The position numbers were made by a program, and so were the translations under genes. Below, one piece after another: positions 3,272 to 11,009 of a DNA stretch of 13,315 bases. This DNA comes from Defluviicoccus sp. GTDB taxonomy: Bacteria > Pseudomonadota > Alphaproteobacteria > MPNO01. Location: NCBI GenBank assembly GCA_028820945.1, contig JAPPHW010000294.1, positions 1 through 13,315 on the forward strand, in the 5' to 3' direction. Within the stretch, counting starts at the first letter, position 1. Every line of letters starts with the position of its first letter. The notes under the pieces are model-generated. The model had not been told where the DNA came from, made no database searches, and was given only the letters and a program-made list of their open reading frames with translations.

Positions 3272-4054
3272 CTAGCCGCCAGCCGTCGCATATTGCATAT
3301 CGCCCCGGGTCGCCCAGCCGGTGAAGCGGTTGTCGAGAACCGCGAAGATCGCGTACATGCCGATCGCCATGGCGGCGATCACGATCAGACCGGCGATCAT
3401 CAGCGCCATGTTGAAGTTCGAGCTCGCGACCAGCATCAGGTGCCCGATCCCGTCGCCGCCCGCCACGGTCTCGGCGATGACCGCGCCGACGAAGGCGAGC
3501 GTGATCGCGATCTTGAGCGAGGCGAACAGATAGGGGAGCGAACGCGGGATTCCGACCTTGATCACGATGTCCCGCTCATGCGCGCCGAGCGCGCGCAGCA
3601 CGTCGCGAAGCTCGGGCTCGATGGTGGCGAGCGCGACGGCGACGTTCACGACGATCGGGAAAAAGCAGAGGATGAAGGCGGTTATCGTTGCCGTCGTCAG
3701 CCCGATCCCGAACCAGACCATCAGGATCGGCACCACCGCCACCTTGGGAATGCTGTTGAAGGCGACCAGCAGCGGGTAAAGCGCCGCGTAGACCGGTTTG
3801 GAGATGCCGATAAAGACGCCGAGCACGATGCCGAACACGACCGCGATGCCGAAGCCCAGCAGCGTCGCGATAAGCGTCGGGACCGCGTTGTGCCAGAGTG
3901 CCACACGGAACTCCCACACCGCGTAGAACGACGAACTCGCGGTCGGCAGCACCACCGCGGGCACGTCGAACAGGCGTACGCCGATTTCCCAGATGACGAT
4001 GCAGGCCAGCGTCACCAGCCACGGCGACAGCCGTTCGACGGTCTTGCTACTCAT
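3272..4054 (-). CDS. ABC transporter permease, SsuC/TauC/ThiX-like
   Basis: This is the inner-membrane channel subunit of an ABC importer. The 260-residue protein is strongly hydrophobic, with about six membrane segments (roughly 12-30, 62-84, 92-115, 119-141, 177-196 and 216-238). Between segments four and five is the cytoplasmic EAA-type coupling loop that docks on the ATPase (about 146-174, with LGAHERDIVIKVGIPRSLP). This architecture is that of the taurine/nitrate/sulfonate/HMP importer permeases. Its ATG (4054) lies 8 bases inside the end of the ATPase gene, showing a coupled operon. There is only one permease gene, so it probably acts as a homodimer. The permease does not reveal the substrate; the binding protein and gene context point to a pyrimidine-like compound. 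Confidence 0.9.
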   Translation of the reverse strand: MSSKTVERLSPWLVTLACIVIWEIGVRLFDVPAVVLPTASSSFYAVWEFRVALWHNAVPTLIATLLGFGIAVVFGIVLGVFIGISKPVYAALYPLLVAFNSIPKVAVVPILMVWFGIGLTTATITAFILCFFPIVVNVAVALATIEPELRDVLRALGAHERDIVIKVGIPRSLPYLFASLKIAITLAFVGAVIAETVAGGDGIGHLMLVASSNFNMALMIAGLIVIAAMAIGMYAIFAVLDNRFTGWATRGDMQYATAGG

Positions 4055-4853
4055 CGTCGGATCTCGCGATGTTGATGTGGTGGCGGAGTTCCTGGACGAG
4101 TTCCACCGTCTCCCGCCTGTACATATGTTCGAGCGTGCGCGGGCGTTGCATCTCGATGTTCCGCTCGAGGATGATCCGCCCGGGCCGCGCGCTCATCACA
4201 TAGACCTTGTCGGCGAGGTAGACCGCCTCGCGAAGGTCGTGGGTGACCAGCATCACCGTGCATTTCCGCTTCATGTAGAGCGTCTGGAGCACGTCCCAGA
4301 GCTCTTCGCGGGTAAAGGCGTCGAGCGCGCCGAACGGCTCGTCGAGCAGCAGCAGGTCGGGCTCGTGGACCAACGCGCGGCAAAGCTGTGCCCGCTGCTG
4401 CATTCCGCCCGACAGCTGCCACGGCGCGCGGTCGCCGAAACCCTCGAGACCCACGGTCGCGAGCAACTCGTCGGCAACTGCTTCGTATTTCGCCTTTTCC
4501 CGGCGGAATTGCTGGCGGTGCGGCTCGACGATCTCCATCGGCAGCAGCACGTTCTCCCGGGTGGAGCGCCACGGCAGGAGCGTCGCGTTCTGGAATGCCA
4601 TGCCGACGATTTTGAGCGGCCGGTCGACGATCTGTCCGGCGACCGAGACGCGACCTTTGTTGGCCTTGATCAGCCCGGCAACGACCTTGAGCAAGGTCGA
4701 CTTGCCGCAGCCGCTCGGCCCGACCAGCGAGATGAAGTCGCCCCGCTCCATCGTAACGCTGGCACCCTGCAGCGCCAGCGTTCCGGAATCGTCCTCGTCC
4801 CCCGCGCTGTTGCGGTAGGTGAGGTCGATCTCGTCTATCTCGATAAAAGCCAT
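4047..4853 (-). CDS. ABC transporter ATP-binding protein, TauB/SsuB/ThiZ-like
   Basis: This cytoplasmic ATPase powers the importer. The 268-residue protein shows every ABC motif in order: Walker A GPSGCGKST at 45-53, Q-loop Q88, signature LSGGMQQR at 147-154, Walker B LLLLDEP at 167-173, D-loop GALD at 175-178 and switch histidine H205. The MAFQNATLLPW segment (about 85-95) is typical of nitrate/taurine/HMP importer ATPases. The C-terminal tail is short, with no regulatory domain. The start is ATG at 4853, without a clear ribosome-binding site. The binding-protein gene ends 56 bases upstream, with a strong hairpin in that gap, and the permease gene overlaps the 3' end by 8 bases. Confidence 0.93.
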   Translation of the reverse strand: MAFIEIDEIDLTYRNSAGDEDDSGTLALQGASVTMERGDFISLVGPSGCGKSTLLKVVAGLIKANKGRVSVAGQIVDRPLKIVGMAFQNATLLPWRSTRENVLLPMEIVEPHRQQFRREKAKYEAVADELLATVGLEGFGDRAPWQLSGGMQQRAQLCRALVHEPDLLLLDEPFGALDAFTREELWDVLQTLYMKRKCTVMLVTHDLREAVYLADKVYVMSARPGRIILERNIEMQRPRTLEHMYRRETVELVQELRHHINIARSDDE

Positions 4854-4909: not shown

Positions 4910-5938
4910 TTACTTGTGGATGAAACGCTCGGACTGGGGCGGCAGGTAGCCGTCCAGCCACATGTCGGCAGCCTTCGGCGGCTCCTTGATGCCGTAGGCG
5001 TCGGCGGCCTGGTCGATCGAACGCTGGAGGCGCGCCATGTCGATGCCGCCATAGCCGTTCTTGCGGACGTTCGGCGTCAGCACGCAGCATTTGATGCCGA
5101 GCCTCAGCCGGTCGGCCTCGACCGCCTCGTTGAGCAGCGGCTCGAACTTCTTGGCCGACGACAGCGCGAGCTGGGGTTTCTGCACCATGTCGCGAGTCGC
5201 CTTGATGGTGGCCCGAACGAAGCCGCGCACCGCATCGCCGTTCTTGGCGAGGAAGTCGGGTCTCACCGCGACGCCGTTGGCATAGGACTCCATGCCGTAG
5301 TCGCCATACATGAAGAAGGTGACGTCCTCTTCCTTGATACCGGCCGCCTTGAGATTGAGCATCGAGGAGAAAACGTGCCCCGAGATCGCGTCGACCTGCT
5401 CCTTGATGAGCATCGGCTCGCGCAGCCGCGGGTCCATGTTCTTCTTCTTCACCGAGTTGGGATCGATGCCGATGGCTTTGGCGAAGGCGGGGAACAGCTT
5501 GTAACTGGCGTCGAAGACCGGCGCGCCCAGCGTCTTGCCGACGAGCTGCTTGGGATGCGTGATGCCCGACTTCTTCAGCACGAAGATGGAGAACGGGGGC
5601 TGCTCGTACATCATCATTACGCTCTTGATCTCTTTGCCCTTGTTCTGGGCGTTGTACTGGATCAAGGCGTTGATGTCGGCGAGGCCGATGTCGTGGGTGC
5701 CGCTAACGAGCTTCTTCACCGCGTCGGCCGAGCCGCGTCCGGCGTCGATCTTCACGTCCAGACCTTCGGCCTTGTAGTAGCCCTCGTACTGGGCGATGAA
5801 GATCAGCCCGTGTGTCGACTGCGGAATCCAGTCGAGCGTGAGCCGGATCTTGGTCGCCGCGGAAGCGCCGAAGCTCCCGACCGCGACGGCGGCGGAAACC
5901 GCGGCCGCGAGCGCGACCGAGCTGAGCTTGCTTGTCAT
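4910..5938 (-). CDS. ABC transporter substrate-binding protein, NMT1/THI5-like (pyrimidine-type ligand suspected)
   Basis: This is a periplasmic ligand-binding protein of a TauA/SsuA/ThiY-type importer. With the ATG at 5938 it has 342 residues. Residues 1-27 form a signal peptide with a hydrophobic alanine/valine core and an A-S-A cleavage site before A28. The mature protein opens with LDWIPQSTHGLIFIAQYEGY (35-54), the hallmark of the NMT1/THI5-like family, followed by EGLDVKI. The frame stays open another 43 codons upstream, but those residues would bury the signal peptide and the internal ATG has a good ribosome-binding site. Family members bind HMP and related pyrimidines, riboflavin, or sulfonates. 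The adjacent pyrimidine genes suggest an orotate-like ligand; no TPP riboswitch or thiamine gene is nearby to support thiamine-precursor uptake. Confidence 0.87.
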   Translation of the reverse strand: MTSKLSSVALAAAVSAAVAVGSFGASAATKIRLTLDWIPQSTHGLIFIAQYEGYYKAEGLDVKIDAGRGSADAVKKLVSGTHDIGLADINALIQYNAQNKGKEIKSVMMMYEQPPFSIFVLKKSGITHPKQLVGKTLGAPVFDASYKLFPAFAKAIGIDPNSVKKKNMDPRLREPMLIKEQVDAISGHVFSSMLNLKAAGIKEEDVTFFMYGDYGMESYANGVAVRPDFLAKNGDAVRGFVRATIKATRDMVQKPQLALSSAKKFEPLLNEAVEADRLRLGIKCCVLTPNVRKNGYGGIDMARLQRSIDQAADAYGIKEPPKAADMWLDGYLPPQSERFIHK

Positions 5939-5943
5939 CTGTT

Positions 5944-5952
5944 TCCTCTCCC
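5944..5952 (-). promoter_or_regulatory. Ribosome-binding site fixing the start of the substrate-binding protein
   Basis: Read on the minus strand, GGGAGAGGA ends 5 bases before the ATG at 5938. This makes that ATG the start rather than the in-frame ATG 43 codons upstream at 6067. Confidence 0.75.
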
Positions 5953-6153: not shown

Positions 6154-6849
6154 TCAGCTGGCGAGCCGGGAGGCGCCGCCATGCGCCGCCGACCAGCTCA
6201 CCGGGTCGTTCATGAACCGCTCCACCTCGTCGAGCGTCGCGGCGTCGAAATAGGCGTGCTTCTTGCACACCGCGAGCACGTCCCACCATGTGGCCAGCGA
6301 GAGCATCTTCATGTCCATCTTCTCGAGCAGCTTGTGGGTCTGCGGGAAGATGTCGTAGTGGAAGATCACGAAGGTGTGGTTTACGACGGCGCCCGCCTCG
6401 CGCAGCGCCTGACAGAAGCGGATCTTGCTCTGCCCATCCGTGGTCAGGTCCTCGACCAGGATGACACGCGAGCCGGCCTCGAAATCGCCCTCGATCTGGG
6501 CGTCCCGGCCGAACCCCTTGGCCTGCTTGCGCACATACTGCATGGGGAGCATCAGCCGGTCGGCGATCCAGGCGGCGAAGGGGATGCCGGCGGTCTCTCC
6601 GCCCGCCACCGCGTCGATGGTCTCGAACCCGACCTCGCGGACGATCGAGGATGCCGCGAAGTCCATCAGCGTCTGGCGCACCCTCGGGAAGGAAATCAAC
6701 CGCCGGCAGTCGATATAGACCGGGCTCGCCCAGCCCGAGGTGAACCGGTAGGGGTCGTCGGCGCGGAACCGCACCGCCTCCACCTCGATCAGCATTCGCG
6801 CCGTCATCTCGGCGATCAACGATTCGTCCGGAAACGCCGTCGGCAGCAT
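6154..6849 (-). CDS. pyrE: Orotate phosphoribosyltransferase
   Basis: The enzyme joins orotate to PRPP, giving OMP and pyrophosphate, the fifth step of UMP synthesis; it also salvages external orotate. With the ATG at 6849 the protein is 231 residues, as for the long alphaproteobacterial PyrE type. The PRPP-binding motif is [13 protein letters not shown] at 129-141. The flexible catalytic loop is [17 protein letters not shown] at 105-121, and substrate-binding segments [13 protein letters not shown] (37-49) and [11 protein letters not shown] (82-92) are present. In the loop, the histidine of the classical KxHG pattern is phenylalanine (F113). A GTG at 6897 overlapping the pyrC stop would add 16 low-complexity residues and is less likely. 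It is the last gene of the five-gene pyrimidine block. Confidence 0.93.
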
Positions 6850-6853
6850 CCAT

Positions 6854-6862
6854 CCCTCTCCT
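6854..6862 (-). promoter_or_regulatory. Ribosome-binding site fixing the pyrE start
   Basis: Read on the minus strand, AGGAGAGGG ends 4 bases before the ATG at 6849, with its AGGAG core 8 bases away. This favours that ATG over the in-frame GTG at 6897. Confidence 0.7.
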
Positions 6863-6893
6863 CGCTCGCCCCCGCTCCACGCGCCCGGACGGC

Positions 6894-7949
6894 TCACCTG
6901 AGGCCGGAAACGATCCGCCAGGAGATCGGCGTGTCGGGTTCGAACACCCTGATCGCGTGGTCCGCGACCCCCACCGCCTCCCGGGGCGTCTCGGAAACTA
7001 CCCCTTTTTCGAGCACGATGCGGTCGGAATTCGGCTCCATGCGATAAAATTCGGCGCCCGCGCGGGACACGAAACCCTCGAGCCGGTCGAGCGCGCCTTC
7101 CTCATCGAAAACTTGTGCGACGCATTGCAGCGCGTTCGGGGCATTGAAGATTCCGGCGCAGCCGCAATCGGTCTCCTTGTCGCGCCTGGGGTGGGGCGCC
7201 GAATCGGTGCCGAGAAAGAAACGCGAATCGCCCGACGTCGCAGCCGCGCGGAGAGCCAGCCGATGGCGCTCCTGCTTCGCCACGGGGAGGCAATACATGT
7301 GCGGCCTGATCCCGCCCCGGAAGATGGCGTTCCGGTTGATCATCAGGTGATGCGGCGTGATCGTCGCGCCCAGCCCGTCCTCCGCCGCCCGCACGTAGTC
7401 GACCGCTTCGGCCGTCGTGACGTGTTCGAGGACGACCTTGAGCCCCGGGAAGTCGCGCCGCATCGGGTCGAGCACACGTTCGATATAGACCGCTTCCCGG
7501 TCGAACACGTCGACCTCGGGATCGACGACCTCGCCGTGGACGAGGAGCGGCATGCCGATCCTCTCCATCTCAGCCAGCACCGGGCGGATCGCCTCCATGC
7601 GGGTCACGCCGAACGCCGAATTGGTCGTGGCGCCGGCGGGGTAGAGCTTCACGGCATGAAAGGCGCCGTTCTCGAATCCGGACCGGATGTCGTCAGGCTC
7701 GGCGTTGTCGGTCATGTAGGCGGTCATCAGCGGCGCAAACGGATGGCCGGCCGGCAAGGCCGCCTCGATGCGCGCGCGGTAGGCCTCGGCCTCGGCCGGA
7801 ATCCGCACCGGCGGCACCAGATTGGGCATGACGATCGCCCGGCCGAAGACCGCTGCCGAGAAGCCGACGACTGTGTGCAGCATGGCCCCGTCGCGGAGAT
7901 GGAGGTGCCAGTCGTCGGGGCGGACGATCTCGATCCGTTCGGCCGTCAC
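6894..7949 (-). CDS. pyrC: Dihydroorotase, class II (E. coli PyrC type)
   Basis: The enzyme reversibly interconverts N-carbamoyl-L-aspartate and L-dihydroorotate. The 351-residue protein matches E. coli-type PyrC throughout. The metal-binding HLHLRDG begins at H15 and H17; K101 in the [13 protein letters not shown] segment is the carbamylated bridging lysine; H138 (LLVHGE) and H176 (LEHVTT) are further ligands; D249 in GTDSAPH is the catalytic acid/base. The [10 protein letters not shown] segment at 262-271 is also characteristic. The start is GTG at 7949, overlapping the upstream amidohydrolase stop by 4 bases (GTGA), so translation is coupled. All catalytic residues are intact. Placed beside an N-carbamoyl amidohydrolase and PyrDK, it could run toward ring opening as well as ring closure. 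Confidence 0.95.
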
Positions 7950-9223
7950 GGCGGGTCCATCAGCGCGCGGTAGAGAAGATCGGCGCCCTTGAGGAAATCG
8001 TCGATGTCCATCGCCTCGTTCGGGTTGTGCGAGCCGTTATGGTTGCGGATGAAGATCATGGCCGACGGGATGCCGGCCGAGGCGAACAACACGGCGTCGT
8101 GGCCCGCGCCGCTCTGGATCGTCCGCTCCGGCAGCGACAGGGACCGGGCGTGCTGCAGCAGCCTGTCCACCCAGCGCCGATCCATAATCGCCGGTTCCGC
8201 GTCGACCCTCCGGTCGAAGTTGAACATCACCCGGCGTTCGGCGGCGATCCGGTCGCACTCGCTCCGCATCAACTCGTAGAACCCCTCGAGGGTCTCGGTG
8301 TCCTCGCTCCGCACCTCGAAGCTGAAGGCGACCTCGCCCGCGATGCGCGAGACCGAGTGCGACCGCCCGTCGGTCTCGACGATTCCGGTCGTCACCACGA
8401 TGTCGTGCCCCCGGTCCAGCCAGTCTTTCCAACGGTTGTCGAGCGTGTGGATCAGCGCCGCGGTGGCCATGACCGGATCGTTCCTGAGCCCGCGCGGGAC
8501 CGCTCCCGAATGCCCCGCCTCGCCGATGCACCGGATCCTGCGGTGCCGCAGATTGCCGCGGATCGAGGTCACCACGGCGGTCGGCAGGCTGTCGGCGACC
8601 AGGATCGGTCCCTGCTCGATATGGAGCTCGATGTACCCCGCGATGTCGGCCGGATCGACCAGCGCCGTGCCCGCTTCGATCGCTTCGACCTCCGCCCCGC
8701 TGCGTTTCATCGCCTCGCCCAGGGTGCCCGCCCCGTCGCGATGCACCGAGGCGAGGTCGGCCTTCCGCAGGCGCCCGAACAGGGCGCTCGATCCGACGCA
8801 GGCCTTGCCGTACCAAGCGCTTTCCTCGCCGCGCAGCGCGATCACCCGGACCGGTCGTTTCGGCTCCGCGTGCTCCAGCCGCGCGCGCACCAGGCCGAGC
8901 AGCCCCGCGACCACCCCGGCGGCGCCGTCGAAATTGCCGCCCTCCGGCACCGAATCCATGTGCGATCCGCAGGCGATGTAAGGCGTCTTCCTCGTCTGGC
9001 CGGGCAGCGAGATCAGCAGATTGGCCGCTCTATCGGTGCCGGTTTCGAGCCCGAACCTCTCCGCGACATCGATCAGGATTTCGAAGGCCGCGTTCTCGCC
9101 CGCGCCGAAGCTCTCGCGGGAGACGCCCTGCCTTGCCGCCGTGCTCTGGCGCAGCGTGTCGAAAATCTCGACGGCGAGCGAACGCAGCTCTTCGCGCGCG
9201 GTCTGGAGCGCCGTTTCGGTCAT
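7946..9223 (-). CDS. M20-family Zn-dependent hydantoinase/carbamoylase-type amidohydrolase (candidate ureidosuccinase)
   Basis: Members of this family hydrolyse N-carbamoyl amino acids, 3-ureidopropionate or allantoate, releasing CO2 and NH3. The 425-residue protein starts with ATG at 9223, overlapping the pyrD stop by 4 bases (ATGA). The dinuclear metal ligands are visible: H88 (GSHMDS), D99 (GNFDGA), E133/E134 (RGEES), H201 (LHIEQGP) and H399 (GSHNPNE). The lid/dimerisation domain (about 215-335) contains GEAGHSG at 234-240, and H375 sits in SGAGHDA. It lies between dihydroorotate dehydrogenase and dihydroorotase, so N-carbamoyl-L-aspartate is the most economical substrate. That would make it a ureidosuccinase giving L-aspartate. 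Sequence alone does not exclude allantoate, ureidopropionate or another carbamoyl amino acid. Family assignment is firm; substrate is inferred. Confidence 0.88.
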   Translation of the reverse strand: MTETALQTAREELRSLAVEIFDTLRQSTAARQGVSRESFGAGENAAFEILIDVAERFGLETGTDRAANLLISLPGQTRKTPYIACGSHMDSVPEGGNFDGAAGVVAGLLGLVRARLEHAEPKRPVRVIALRGEESAWYGKACVGSSALFGRLRKADLASVHRDGAGTLGEAMKRSGAEVEAIEAGTALVDPADIAGYIELHIEQGPILVADSLPTAVVTSIRGNLRHRRIRCIGEAGHSGAVPRGLRNDPVMATAALIHTLDNRWKDWLDRGHDIVVTTGIVETDGRSHSVSRIAGEVAFSFEVRSEDTETLEGFYELMRSECDRIAAERRVMFNFDRRVDAEPAIMDRRWVDRLLQHARSLSLPERTIQSGAGHDAVLFASAGIPSAMIFIRNHNGSHNPNEAMDIDDFLKGADLLYRALMDPP

Positions 9224-10158
9224 CGCAGGGGGTCGACCCATTCCATGTCGGTCTCGTCCGCCTCCTCGACCGATAGCGCGCCCACGAGATCGGTCACGCG
9301 CTCGTAGCCGCGGCGCATACAGTAGCTCTCGATACCTTCGAGCACCGAGATCATCGCGGTCGGGTGGACGAAGGTCACGGTTCCCACCTGGACCGCGCTC
9401 GCGCCGGCCAGCATGTATTCGATCGCATCCTCCGCCGTCGCGATCCCGCCGCAGCCGACTATCGGGACGTCGACGGCGCGCGCGCATTGCCAGGCCATGC
9501 GGAGCACGATGGGTCGGATCGCCGGTCCGGAGAGGCCGCCGGTCACGCTGCCGAGCCTGGGGCGCTGGCTCTCGATATCGACCGCCATGGCGAGGAAGGT
9601 GTTGGCGACCACCAGCGCGTCGGCGCCCGCGGCCTCGACCGCGCGGGCGATCTCCGCGATGTCGGTGACGTTGGGGGAAAGCTTGACCCAGAGGGGAAGC
9701 GACGTGCGTCGTCGGATCGCGGCCGTGGCCCGCTCCGCCGAGGCCGTTTCGTTGGCGAAGGCCTTGCCGTCCTCTTCCAGGTTGGGGCAGGAGATATTGG
9801 CTTCGATCGCGGCCACGCCCGGCAGGCTCACCTCCTCCGCGAGGCTTGCGAAGCCGTCGACGGTCGGCGCGGAAATGCTGACCACCAGCGGCGTCGAGTA
9901 TCGCGCATAGGTCGGCAGCGTCTCCTCGTGGAAATAGGGCATGCCCTTGGACGGAATGCCGATCGAGTTCAGCATCCCTTCCGGCGTTTCGCAGACCCTG
10001 GGCAGCGCATTGCCCACTCTGAGCTCGCGGGTGATGGTCTTGATCACCATCGCGCCGAGCCGTTCGAAATCGACCGCCTTGTCGAGCCCGTCCGCGAAGG
10101 TACCCGAAGCCGGCATGACCGGGTTGGCCAGCCTGACCCCGCCGATTTCGACCTGCAT
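9220..10158 (-). CDS. pyrD: Dihydroorotate dehydrogenase, class 1B catalytic subunit
   Basis: This FMN enzyme interconverts L-dihydroorotate and orotate; class 1B enzymes pass electrons to NAD+ through PyrK. The 312-residue protein has the class 1 opening LANPVMPASGTF (10-21), FMN-contacting K40, the substrate segment NSIG (64-67), catalytic cysteine C124 in NISCPN (121-126), K159, GGLSGPAIRP (207-216) and the phosphate-binding GCGGI (235-239). A catalytic cysteine rather than serine, no N-terminal membrane helix and the adjacent pyrK all mark class 1B. The ATG at 10158 is 2 bases after the pyrK stop. An in-frame TTG at 10167 (3 residues longer) has a better-spaced ribosome-binding site and may be the true start. 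It lacks the 4Fe-4S extension of dihydropyrimidine dehydrogenase. Confidence 0.92.
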   Translation of the reverse strand: MQVEIGGVRLANPVMPASGTFADGLDKAVDFERLGAMVIKTITRELRVGNALPRVCETPEGMLNSIGIPSKGMPYFHEETLPTYARYSTPLVVSISAPTVDGFASLAEEVSLPGVAAIEANISCPNLEEDGKAFANETASAERATAAIRRRTSLPLWVKLSPNVTDIAEIARAVEAAGADALVVANTFLAMAVDIESQRPRLGSVTGGLSGPAIRPIVLRMAWQCARAVDVPIVGCGGIATAEDAIEYMLAGASAVQVGTVTFVHPTAMISVLEGIESYCMRRGYERVTDLVGALSVEEADETDMEWVDPLR

Positions 10159-10160
10159 GT

Positions 10161-11009
10161 CTACCAAGAGATCGCCTCCTGCAGGCCGAATACCGGCCCG
10201 TCCCAGCACACCCGGCGATGAGCGACGCCGCCGTCGACGCGGAACTCGCGCACGCAACAGAAGCACATGCCGAGCCCGCAGGCCATCTGCTGTTCGAGTG
10301 CCACCTGTCCGGGAATGCCGAACTCGCGCCCGAGCCGCTGGAGCAGCAGCAGGAGACGGTTGGAGCCGCAGGTGAAGAACGCATCGGCGCGGTCGTCCGC
10401 GATCAGACCGCGCAGCACGCGCTCGAGCCGCGCCGGCCCGCTGGTCCCTTCCGCGTCGGTTACCTCGATCACGTCCGCGCCTATCGCGGCAAAGCGGTCG
10501 GCCGACATCATCACCGCCGGCGACCGGGCGCTGAGCACCGCAGTCACGCCGATACCGTTCGCCGCCGCGAGTTCGGCGAGCGGCGCGAGTGTGGCAAGCC
10601 CCACCCCGCGCCCGACGACCACGATCCGCCGCCAGCCCGGCTGCAGCGCGAAACCCACGCCCAGCGGACCGAACAGATCGAGACGGTCGCCCGGTGCCAG
10701 GGTGGCCAGCGCCCGCGTGCCGCTCCCCGTGACCTTGTAGAGGAACGCCACCGTGCCCGCCTCCGGATCGGCCCGGTAGACGCTCATCGGGCGGCGGAAG
10801 AACGGTCCGTTGGGGCCGTCCTTGGGGCACAGCATGTGAAAGAACTGGCCGGCGCCGATCGACGTCGCCAGCGGCTCCGCCGTCGCGACGATGTGCATGT
10901 ATTCGGCGTTGACCGCCTCGTTCTCGATCACCTCGCAATCGAACTCGGCCGCGGCGATCGAATACGCCATCGCGTGACGGGGCTCGGCGCCCGGATCGGG
11001 GGACTTCAT
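10161..11009 (-). CDS. pyrK: Dihydroorotate dehydrogenase B electron-transfer subunit
   Basis: PyrK holds FAD and a [2Fe-2S] cluster and links the FMN of class 1B PyrD to NAD(H). The 282-residue protein has a ferredoxin-reductase-like FAD domain with RRPMSVY (72-78), a dinucleotide-binding segment VVVGRGVGLATLAPLAE (130-146), and the cluster-binding cysteines C244-x4-C249-x2-C252-x15-C268 in the family segment EQQMACG. C251 is an extra cysteine inside the cluster loop. The glycine-rich segment reads GRGVG where PyrK proteins usually have GGGIG. The start used is ATG at 11009; an ATG at 10970 (269 residues) is equally possible since neither has a clear ribosome-binding site. It is the first gene of the pyrimidine block. 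Confidence 0.9.
   Translation of the reverse strand: MKSPDPGAEPRHAMAYSIAAAEFDCEVIENEAVNAEYMHIVATAEPLATSIGAGQFFHMLCPKDGPNGPFFRRPMSVYRADPEAGTVAFLYKVTGSGTRALATLAPGDRLDLFGPLGVGFALQPGWRRIVVVGRGVGLATLAPLAELAAANGIGVTAVLSARSPAVMMSADRFAAIGADVIEVTDAEGTSGPARLERVLRGLIADDRADAFFTCGSNRLLLLLQRLGREFGIPGQVALEQQMACGLGMCFCCVREFRVDGGVAHRRVCWDGPVFGLQEAISW
10175..10180 (-). promoter_or_regulatory. Strong ribosome-binding site inside the end of pyrK
   Basis: A perfect AGGAGG on the minus strand lies within the last codons of pyrK. It is 16 bases from the pyrD ATG at 10158, which is too far for good initiation, but only 7 bases from an in-frame TTG at 10167. This suggests pyrD may start at the TTG and overlap pyrK by 7 bases. 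Confidence 0.55.

Follow-up and report, generated by a model that had tools for sequence, protein, structure and literature searches.

Five consecutive genes on a 13,315-nucleotide stretch of Defluviicoccus sp. DNA (contig JAPPHW010000294.1 of assembly GCA_028820945.1, hereafter the window) probably form an operon for the utilisation of orotate (or dihydroorotate). In this operon a hydrolase of the M20 superfamily, here called Hyd, is a good candidate for the N-carbamoyl-L-aspartate amidohydrolase (ureidosuccinase, EC 3.5.1.7). The biochemistry of orotate breakdown was reported in the 1950s, and in the classical fermentation by Zymobacterium/Clostridium oroticum it runs from orotate via dihydroorotate and N-carbamoyl-L-aspartate to aspartate, CO2 and NH3, with ureidosuccinase catalysing the last step. 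No gene seems to have been assigned to this enzyme: among the openly licensed papers searched, we found neither a bacterial gene for ureidosuccinase nor a description of such an operon. A functional assignment of the Hyd clade would put right vague names in the annotation of many genomes, account for a gene seen on 53 Klebsiella plasmid records and open orotate use to direct testing.

We infer the direction of flux and the substrates of Hyd and of the transporter as follows. An importer would bring orotate into the cell, where PyrK would pass electrons from NADH to PyrD for the reduction of orotate to dihydroorotate. PyrC would then open the ring to give N-carbamoyl-L-aspartate, which Hyd would hydrolyse to L-aspartate, CO2 and NH3, making an otherwise reversible chain irreversible. 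PyrE, where present and intact, would divert part of the orotate via orotidine monophosphate to the synthesis of uridine monophosphate. The preliminary description had already proposed PyrDK, PyrC and the hydrolase as the steps of orotate breakdown, an interpretation that now draws support from a conserved neighbourhood, plasmids, extra gene copies and aspartate-linked genes. The proposed steps are identical to those of C. oroticum, a likeness of pathway; the system described here differs in occurring in Proteobacteria, in an operon that often includes PyrE and varied importers, and in having a proposed gene for the last step.

The genes pyrK, pyrD (class 1B), hyd, pyrC and pyrE form an uninterrupted run on the minus strand, from position 11009 down to 6154, as had been described. 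The first, pyrK (10161..11009), carries the PF10418 domain DHODB_Fe-S_bind (1.1e-10) and the cysteine motif C-x4-C-x2-C, and its product is predicted to be the FAD/[2Fe-2S] electron-transfer subunit of a class 1B dihydroorotate dehydrogenase. Its best NCBIfam PyrK model gives 126 bits against a cut-off of 314, and all NCBIfam PyrK equivalogs fall below their cut-offs. It is followed by pyrD (9220..10158; NF005574, 348.9 bits, cut-off 269; SCPN motif), with a predicted role in the interconversion of orotate and dihydroorotate. An equivalog-level PyrD with an adjacent Fe-S/FAD PyrK, as expected of the class 1B enzyme, is thus present, PyrK being recognised by PF10418 and below equivalog level. 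Hyd (7946..9223) belongs to the hydantoinase/carbamoylase family of Zn hydrolases (TIGR01879, 267.4 bits, cut-off 204), pyrC (6894..7949) encodes a class II dihydroorotase (TIGR00856 equivalog, 409.7 bits, cut-off 292.95) predicted to interconvert dihydroorotate and N-carbamoyl-L-aspartate, and pyrE (6154..6897) encodes an orotate phosphoribosyltransferase (NF001729 equivalog, 393.9 bits, cut-off 245) that narrowly misses a second model (TIGR00336, 104.8 against 106.8). The tight spacing reported previously is real, with a total of four such junctions and not three: pyrK and pyrD are separated by a gap of 2 bases, and pyrD-hyd, hyd-pyrC and pyrC-pyrE each overlap by 4 bases. The last overlap depends on a GTG start for pyrE. 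An ATG near 6849, about 48 bases downstream of the GTG, is a likely alternative start, since a purine-rich stretch precedes it and the resulting length fits other PyrE proteins, and its use would turn the overlap into a short gap. The stated lack of pyrB, carA, carB and pyrF, genes that would mark a de novo pyrimidine operon, holds for the ten window genes scanned, with three atp-like genes lying outside that scan.

At least 543 confirmed relatives of Hyd were present in the species-genome collection, and the loci of the best 80, which represent the closest part of the family and include 16 SAR116 loci, were retained. The nearest relatives are four Defluviicoccus loci from metagenome-assembled genomes (90-94 percent identity), which share the layout of the window, including the ABC transporter and atp genes described below. 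Three of these four (L001, L002 and L040) have the same five-gene order, and the fourth (L003) ends inside the hydrolase at a contig end. As the five-gene run recurs in these three loci and pyrK, pyrD, pyrC and pyrE are all found together near Hyd in 10 of the 80 loci, its occurrence in the window is not due to chance. By tblastn, pyrE lies within 8 kb of Hyd in 76 of the 80 loci, on the same strand in all 76 and within 300 bases in 56, while pyrK with pyrD was found within the same distance in 22 loci and class II pyrC in 17. The layouts comprise pyrE without pyrK and pyrD (52 loci), all four genes (10), pyrK, pyrD and pyrE (8), pyrC and pyrE without pyrK and pyrD (6), pyrK and pyrD (3), and pyrK, pyrD and pyrC (1). 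The gene order is therefore conserved well beyond one strain, a question that the preliminary description had raised, and this extends to plasmids.

Nine of the 80 genomes were searched for hydantase-family genes, using a distance of 10 kb, as a control. Members of the Hyd clade were near pyrE in seven of nine cases, near class 1B pyrD in five and near class II pyrC in four, whereas none of the 27 other family members (one of which, G003:C20:277927, is known by position only, its sequence not having been fetched) was near any of the three. The pyrE linkage in 76 of 80 loci against none of 27 led us to reject Hyd as a chance neighbour of pyr genes. Four of the 27 other members adjoin preA-like and dihydropyrimidinase-like genes, both named by score and length and unscanned, and none of the nine clade members does; Hyd was accordingly rejected as the beta-ureidopropionase of the Pyd route. 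In the reductive Pyd route, uracil is degraded by PreTA, dihydropyrimidinase and beta-ureidopropionase. The two routes resemble each other in proceeding by reduction, ring opening and decarbamoylation with related enzymes, but the Pyd route uses another paralog, which stands beside the preA-like and dihydropyrimidinase-like genes in four of the nine genomes. One cell can therefore hold a uracil set and, separately, an orotate-type set.

Hyd exceeds the cut-off of the broad TIGR01879 alone, all other listed models of its family staying below theirs. Allantoate amidohydrolase AllC (TIGR03176, 199.6 bits, cut-off 597.75) and the N-carbamyl-L-glutamate amidohydrolase ErtE (NF058540, 275.7 bits, cut-off 520; the third best NCBIfam model) were both rejected as identities for Hyd, their equivalog scores being far under cut-off. 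The likeness to ErtE lies in the substrate of the latter, a ureido-dicarboxylate one carbon longer. H88, D99, E134, H201, H399, H238 and R305 of Hyd, which we take to be metal ligands or catalytic residues, are identical in all 25 aligned paralogs. A second group, R131, S135, R222, N224, R244, W265, R393 and N394, is invariant in all 80 clade members and differs in most of the 25 paralogs. Each of these residues except S135 is matched in at most 3 of the 25, and window Hyd and six plasmid copies carry all seven. The extra arginines may line the pocket and bind a second carboxylate, and a dianionic substrate would therefore suit Hyd. Hyd shares its sequence family with AllC (1z2l, 4pxd) and N-carbamoyl-L-amino acid hydrolase (3n5f), yet Hyd differs from them in its clade-specific arginines, and the position of Asn277 of E. 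coli AllC, numbered by sequence alignment with solved relatives and presumably involved in substrate recognition, is Ser292 in window Hyd and serine in 77 of the 80 clade members. In a tree rooted on one arbitrarily picked paralog, the 80 loci, the window and six plasmid copies, together 87 operon-type sequences, group in a single clade from which every one of the 25 paralogs is excluded; its support is moderate (0.80). Four clade queries reached a best identity to paralogs of 27-35 percent, and of 38-40 percent to the Cohaesibacter copies L105 and L110, which are counted among the 25 paralogs and among the 27 other members.

Of 7,999 candidates scored in a protein search, 7,725 were matches, distant M20 relatives included; names among the 120 matches listed were mostly absent or read 'Zn-dependent hydrolase' or 'N-carbamoyl-L-amino-acid hydrolase'. 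In the literature, the ureidoglycine carbamoyltransferase treated in passages of PMC4016543 was set aside as catalysing a step other than carbamoyl-aspartate hydrolysis. In the part of the orphan-enzyme survey PMC1940265 that was matched, only the longer EC numbers 3.5.1.71 and 3.5.1.79 occurred, which is uninformative on 3.5.1.7. The papers searched also offered no usable information on ErtE or on pocket residues.

Plasmids carry the Hyd clade as well, in 86 records that include 53 from Klebsiella; 40 of the 86 were listed, and a Klebsiella query gave 71 records, of which 60 were listed. Twelve plasmid regions were opened and one that carried no annotation was left out of the counts. All 11 annotated regions contain pyrK-pyrD-hyd, five have pyrC, seven a pyrE-like gene and ten an adjacent importer. 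The order is MFS-pyrK-pyrD-hyd-pyrC-HTH-pyrE on Variovorax plasmids, MFS-pyrK-pyrD-hyd-pyrE and pyrK-pyrD-hyd-pyrE on Roseomonas plasmids and TRAP-pyrK-pyrD-hyd-pyrE on those of Roseicitreum, Nitratireductor and Paracoccus; an Agrobacterium plasmid has a divergent ABC importer and pyrK-pyrD-hyd. On a P. putida plasmid the order is MFS-pyrK-pyrD-hyd-pyrC followed by a gene for a small protein and a malic-enzyme-like gene, and the dihydroorotase belongs to another subfamily that takes the place of class II PyrC (NF006688, 701 bits, cut-off 535); dihydroorotase activity therefore seems to be what is selected. Klebsiella plasmids carry a divergent MFS gene and pyrK-pyrD-hyd-pyrC-HTH next to lacYZ, the 'hypothetical' first gene best matching PyrK models, and no near match to this cassette was found among 5,426 E. 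coli genomes. The plasmid MFS proteins best match an aromatic-acid/H+ symport family, under its cut-off in all three copies scanned. Plasmid-borne orotate transport, as proposed here, has a counterpart in Lactococcus, in which OroP is such a transporter (PMC4490491), and the passages of that paper concerned with it mention no degradation genes. As a side observation, lacY and lacZ lie beside the cassette in both Klebsiella plasmids read (L129:14179-18543 and L135:14190-18554). Mammalian milk contains orotic acid, according to a passage in PMC10608620, and a link between this and the neighbouring lac genes is our guess.

An aspartate ammonia-lyase gene, assigned by its best NCBIfam model and in L077 just under the cut-off, lies 2-3 kb downstream of the operon in L021, L032 and L077. 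This gene in three loci, together with the P. putida plasmid copy and its malic-enzyme-like gene, suggests aspartate as the end product. A 94-residue match to aspartate ammonia-lyase was also found in L071.

The genomes behind 20 of the 80 loci were searched for pyr genes, with related genomes, of which G001 and G002 are the closest, standing in for the window's own; incompleteness of metagenome-assembled genomes limits these copy counts. The second copies whose search had been suggested were found, related genomes holding further pyrC, pyrD and usually pyrE. PyrB was present in all 20 genomes and class 2 PyrD in 18. Thirteen of the 20 have the operon pyrE on top of another copy, G010 is ambiguous in this respect, and the operon lacks pyrE in G015, G017 and G019. 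The operon thus forms a second, dedicated set in the majority of these genomes, though not clearly in the lineage of the window.

Several observations weigh against a dedicated orotate utilisation operon. No pyrK or pyrD was found near Hyd in 58 of the 80 loci (6 of these have less than 2 kb of upstream sequence, and some may be cut), and a class 1B PyrD over cut-off is absent genome-wide from nine of the ten searched genomes of such loci. Reduction of orotate is therefore excluded as a function common to the whole Hyd clade, and these loci may use imported dihydroorotate or carbamoyl-aspartate. The 16 SAR116 loci consist of Hyd and pyrE, with no pyrK, pyrD or pyrC nearby. The Cohaesibacter copies L105 and L110, just outside the clade, keep most of the signature residues and have no pyr genes within 10 kb. 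Moreover, the operon pyrE is the sole strong pyrE match in G001 and G002, class 2 PyrD was not found in either genome, and G020 has no strong copy of PyrC or PyrE apart from those in the operon. From the G001 and G002 results, the window genes may also be biosynthetic, and a mixed salvage and biosynthetic role of the window operon is possible. The biosynthetic pyrD need not, however, be that of the operon, since both of these genomes hold a second class 1B PyrD over cut-off (with its own pyrK in G001) and, next to pyrB, a weaker match to the PyrD family.

The sole gene copies in G001, G002 and G020, the lack of class 2 PyrD in the first two and the SAR116 loci would all fit a homeostasis or overflow valve: in the lineage of the window the operon would mainly serve biosynthesis, and Hyd would draw off N-carbamoyl-L-aspartate at pyrimidine excess and recover aspartate. 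We regard this as unlikely, because importers, plasmid cassettes and aspartate ammonia-lyase near the operon point to an external substrate and the operon pyrE is mostly an extra copy. That Hyd acts on another ureido acid, such as ureidomalonate, N-carbamoyl-beta-alanine or allantoate, and owes its place among the pyr genes to something else would agree with its nearest NCBIfam subfamilies, a generic 'Zn-dependent hydrolase' and an 'allantoate amidohydrolase', and with an AtzD/barbiturase-family gene in three beta-proteobacterial loci, both of those scanned also having amidase genes. However, AllC, ErtE and the remaining equivalog models of the family are all below cut-off, a separate paralog stands beside the preA-like and dihydropyrimidinase-like genes, and N-carbamoyl-L-aspartate is the sole ureido acid of the block's enzymes in the known pathway, which together make this quite improbable. 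The four pyr enzymes do look standard, as they would in ordinary pyrimidine biosynthesis with Hyd as an unrelated passenger, but both the plasmid cassettes and the linkage to pyrE, set against the other family members, argue so strongly against it that we give this explanation hardly any credence.

The PyrE proteins beside Hyd are themselves unusual. Of the 74 operon PyrE sequences aligned (of 76 extracted, after a length filter), 37 have V, I, M, L or A in place of a conserved lysine of the catalytic loop, the motif VRKKPKG becoming RKRPVG, RKRPMG and similar (for example in L010, L012, L020, L034 and L032). Of these 37, 34 are in loci without pyrK and pyrD. The lysine is kept in 16 of 17 comparison PyrE from elsewhere in these genomes, the seventeenth, L118, being a weak and doubtful PyrE, and it is present in the window PyrE translation and in its close homologue L001. 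A bolder and rather doubtful proposal is that the Hyd clade is the missing ureidosuccinase gene family and lies at the centre of a scavenging system for orotate and orotidine that is widespread and in part carried on plasmids. The PyrE of the pyrE-hyd form would then be no ordinary orotate phosphoribosyltransferase; as a sensor or an enzyme, it would be a new participant in a pathway of pyrimidine intermediates that has yet to be described.

Downstream of pyrE, the window contains a candidate importer on the minus strand, made up of an NMT1/THI5-like ABC substrate-binding protein (4910..5944; PF09084, 4.7e-40), an ABC transporter ATPase (4047..4853) and an ABC transporter permease (3272..4054). 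The NMT1-type gene occupies the same position in the four Defluviicoccus loci L001, L002, L003 and L040. Beyond the ABC genes, three genes were read by eye, with no family scan, as atpH, atpA and atpG, and upstream of pyrK lie divergent genes of the MBL fold and for a 2-hydroxyacid dehydrogenase. Across the 80 loci, tblastn detected importer genes within 8 kb of Hyd of the types TRAP DctP (11), SBP_bac_3-type ABC (11), TctC (17) and NMT1-type ABC (6; L016 holds one too), and the regulators near Hyd include 24 of the XRE type and 18 of the LysR type. Loci with pyrK-pyrD-hyd and no pyrE nearby have a divergent NMT1-type ABC importer and a PNP_UDP_1 nucleoside phosphorylase (L075:11834-16011, L080:13071-17163 and L137:624-4713), and this phosphorylase might release orotate from orotidine.

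Other neighbours were observed in parts of the family. A protein of about 108-112 residues trails the operon on the Variovorax, Klebsiella and P. putida plasmids and in Polynucleobacter (L133:12051-12377, L129:12460-12786, L130:11657-11986, L032:8755-9081 and L076:12110-12448); it had no Pfam match in those scanned and no convincing counterpart in the window, and a weakly related version occurs in Rhodobacterales and others. The AtzD/TrzD (barbiturase) family gene was seen in the beta-proteobacterial pyrE-hyd loci L044, L048 (15383-21169) and L072, and scans of L048 and L072 confirmed the amidase genes there. In the Rhodospirillaceae-type and alphaproteobacterial metagenome-assembled loci L007, L008, L009 and L073, two short genes precede an XRE regulator and hyd-pyrC-pyrE, and the second short gene encodes a thiamine-diphosphate enzyme domain in L008.

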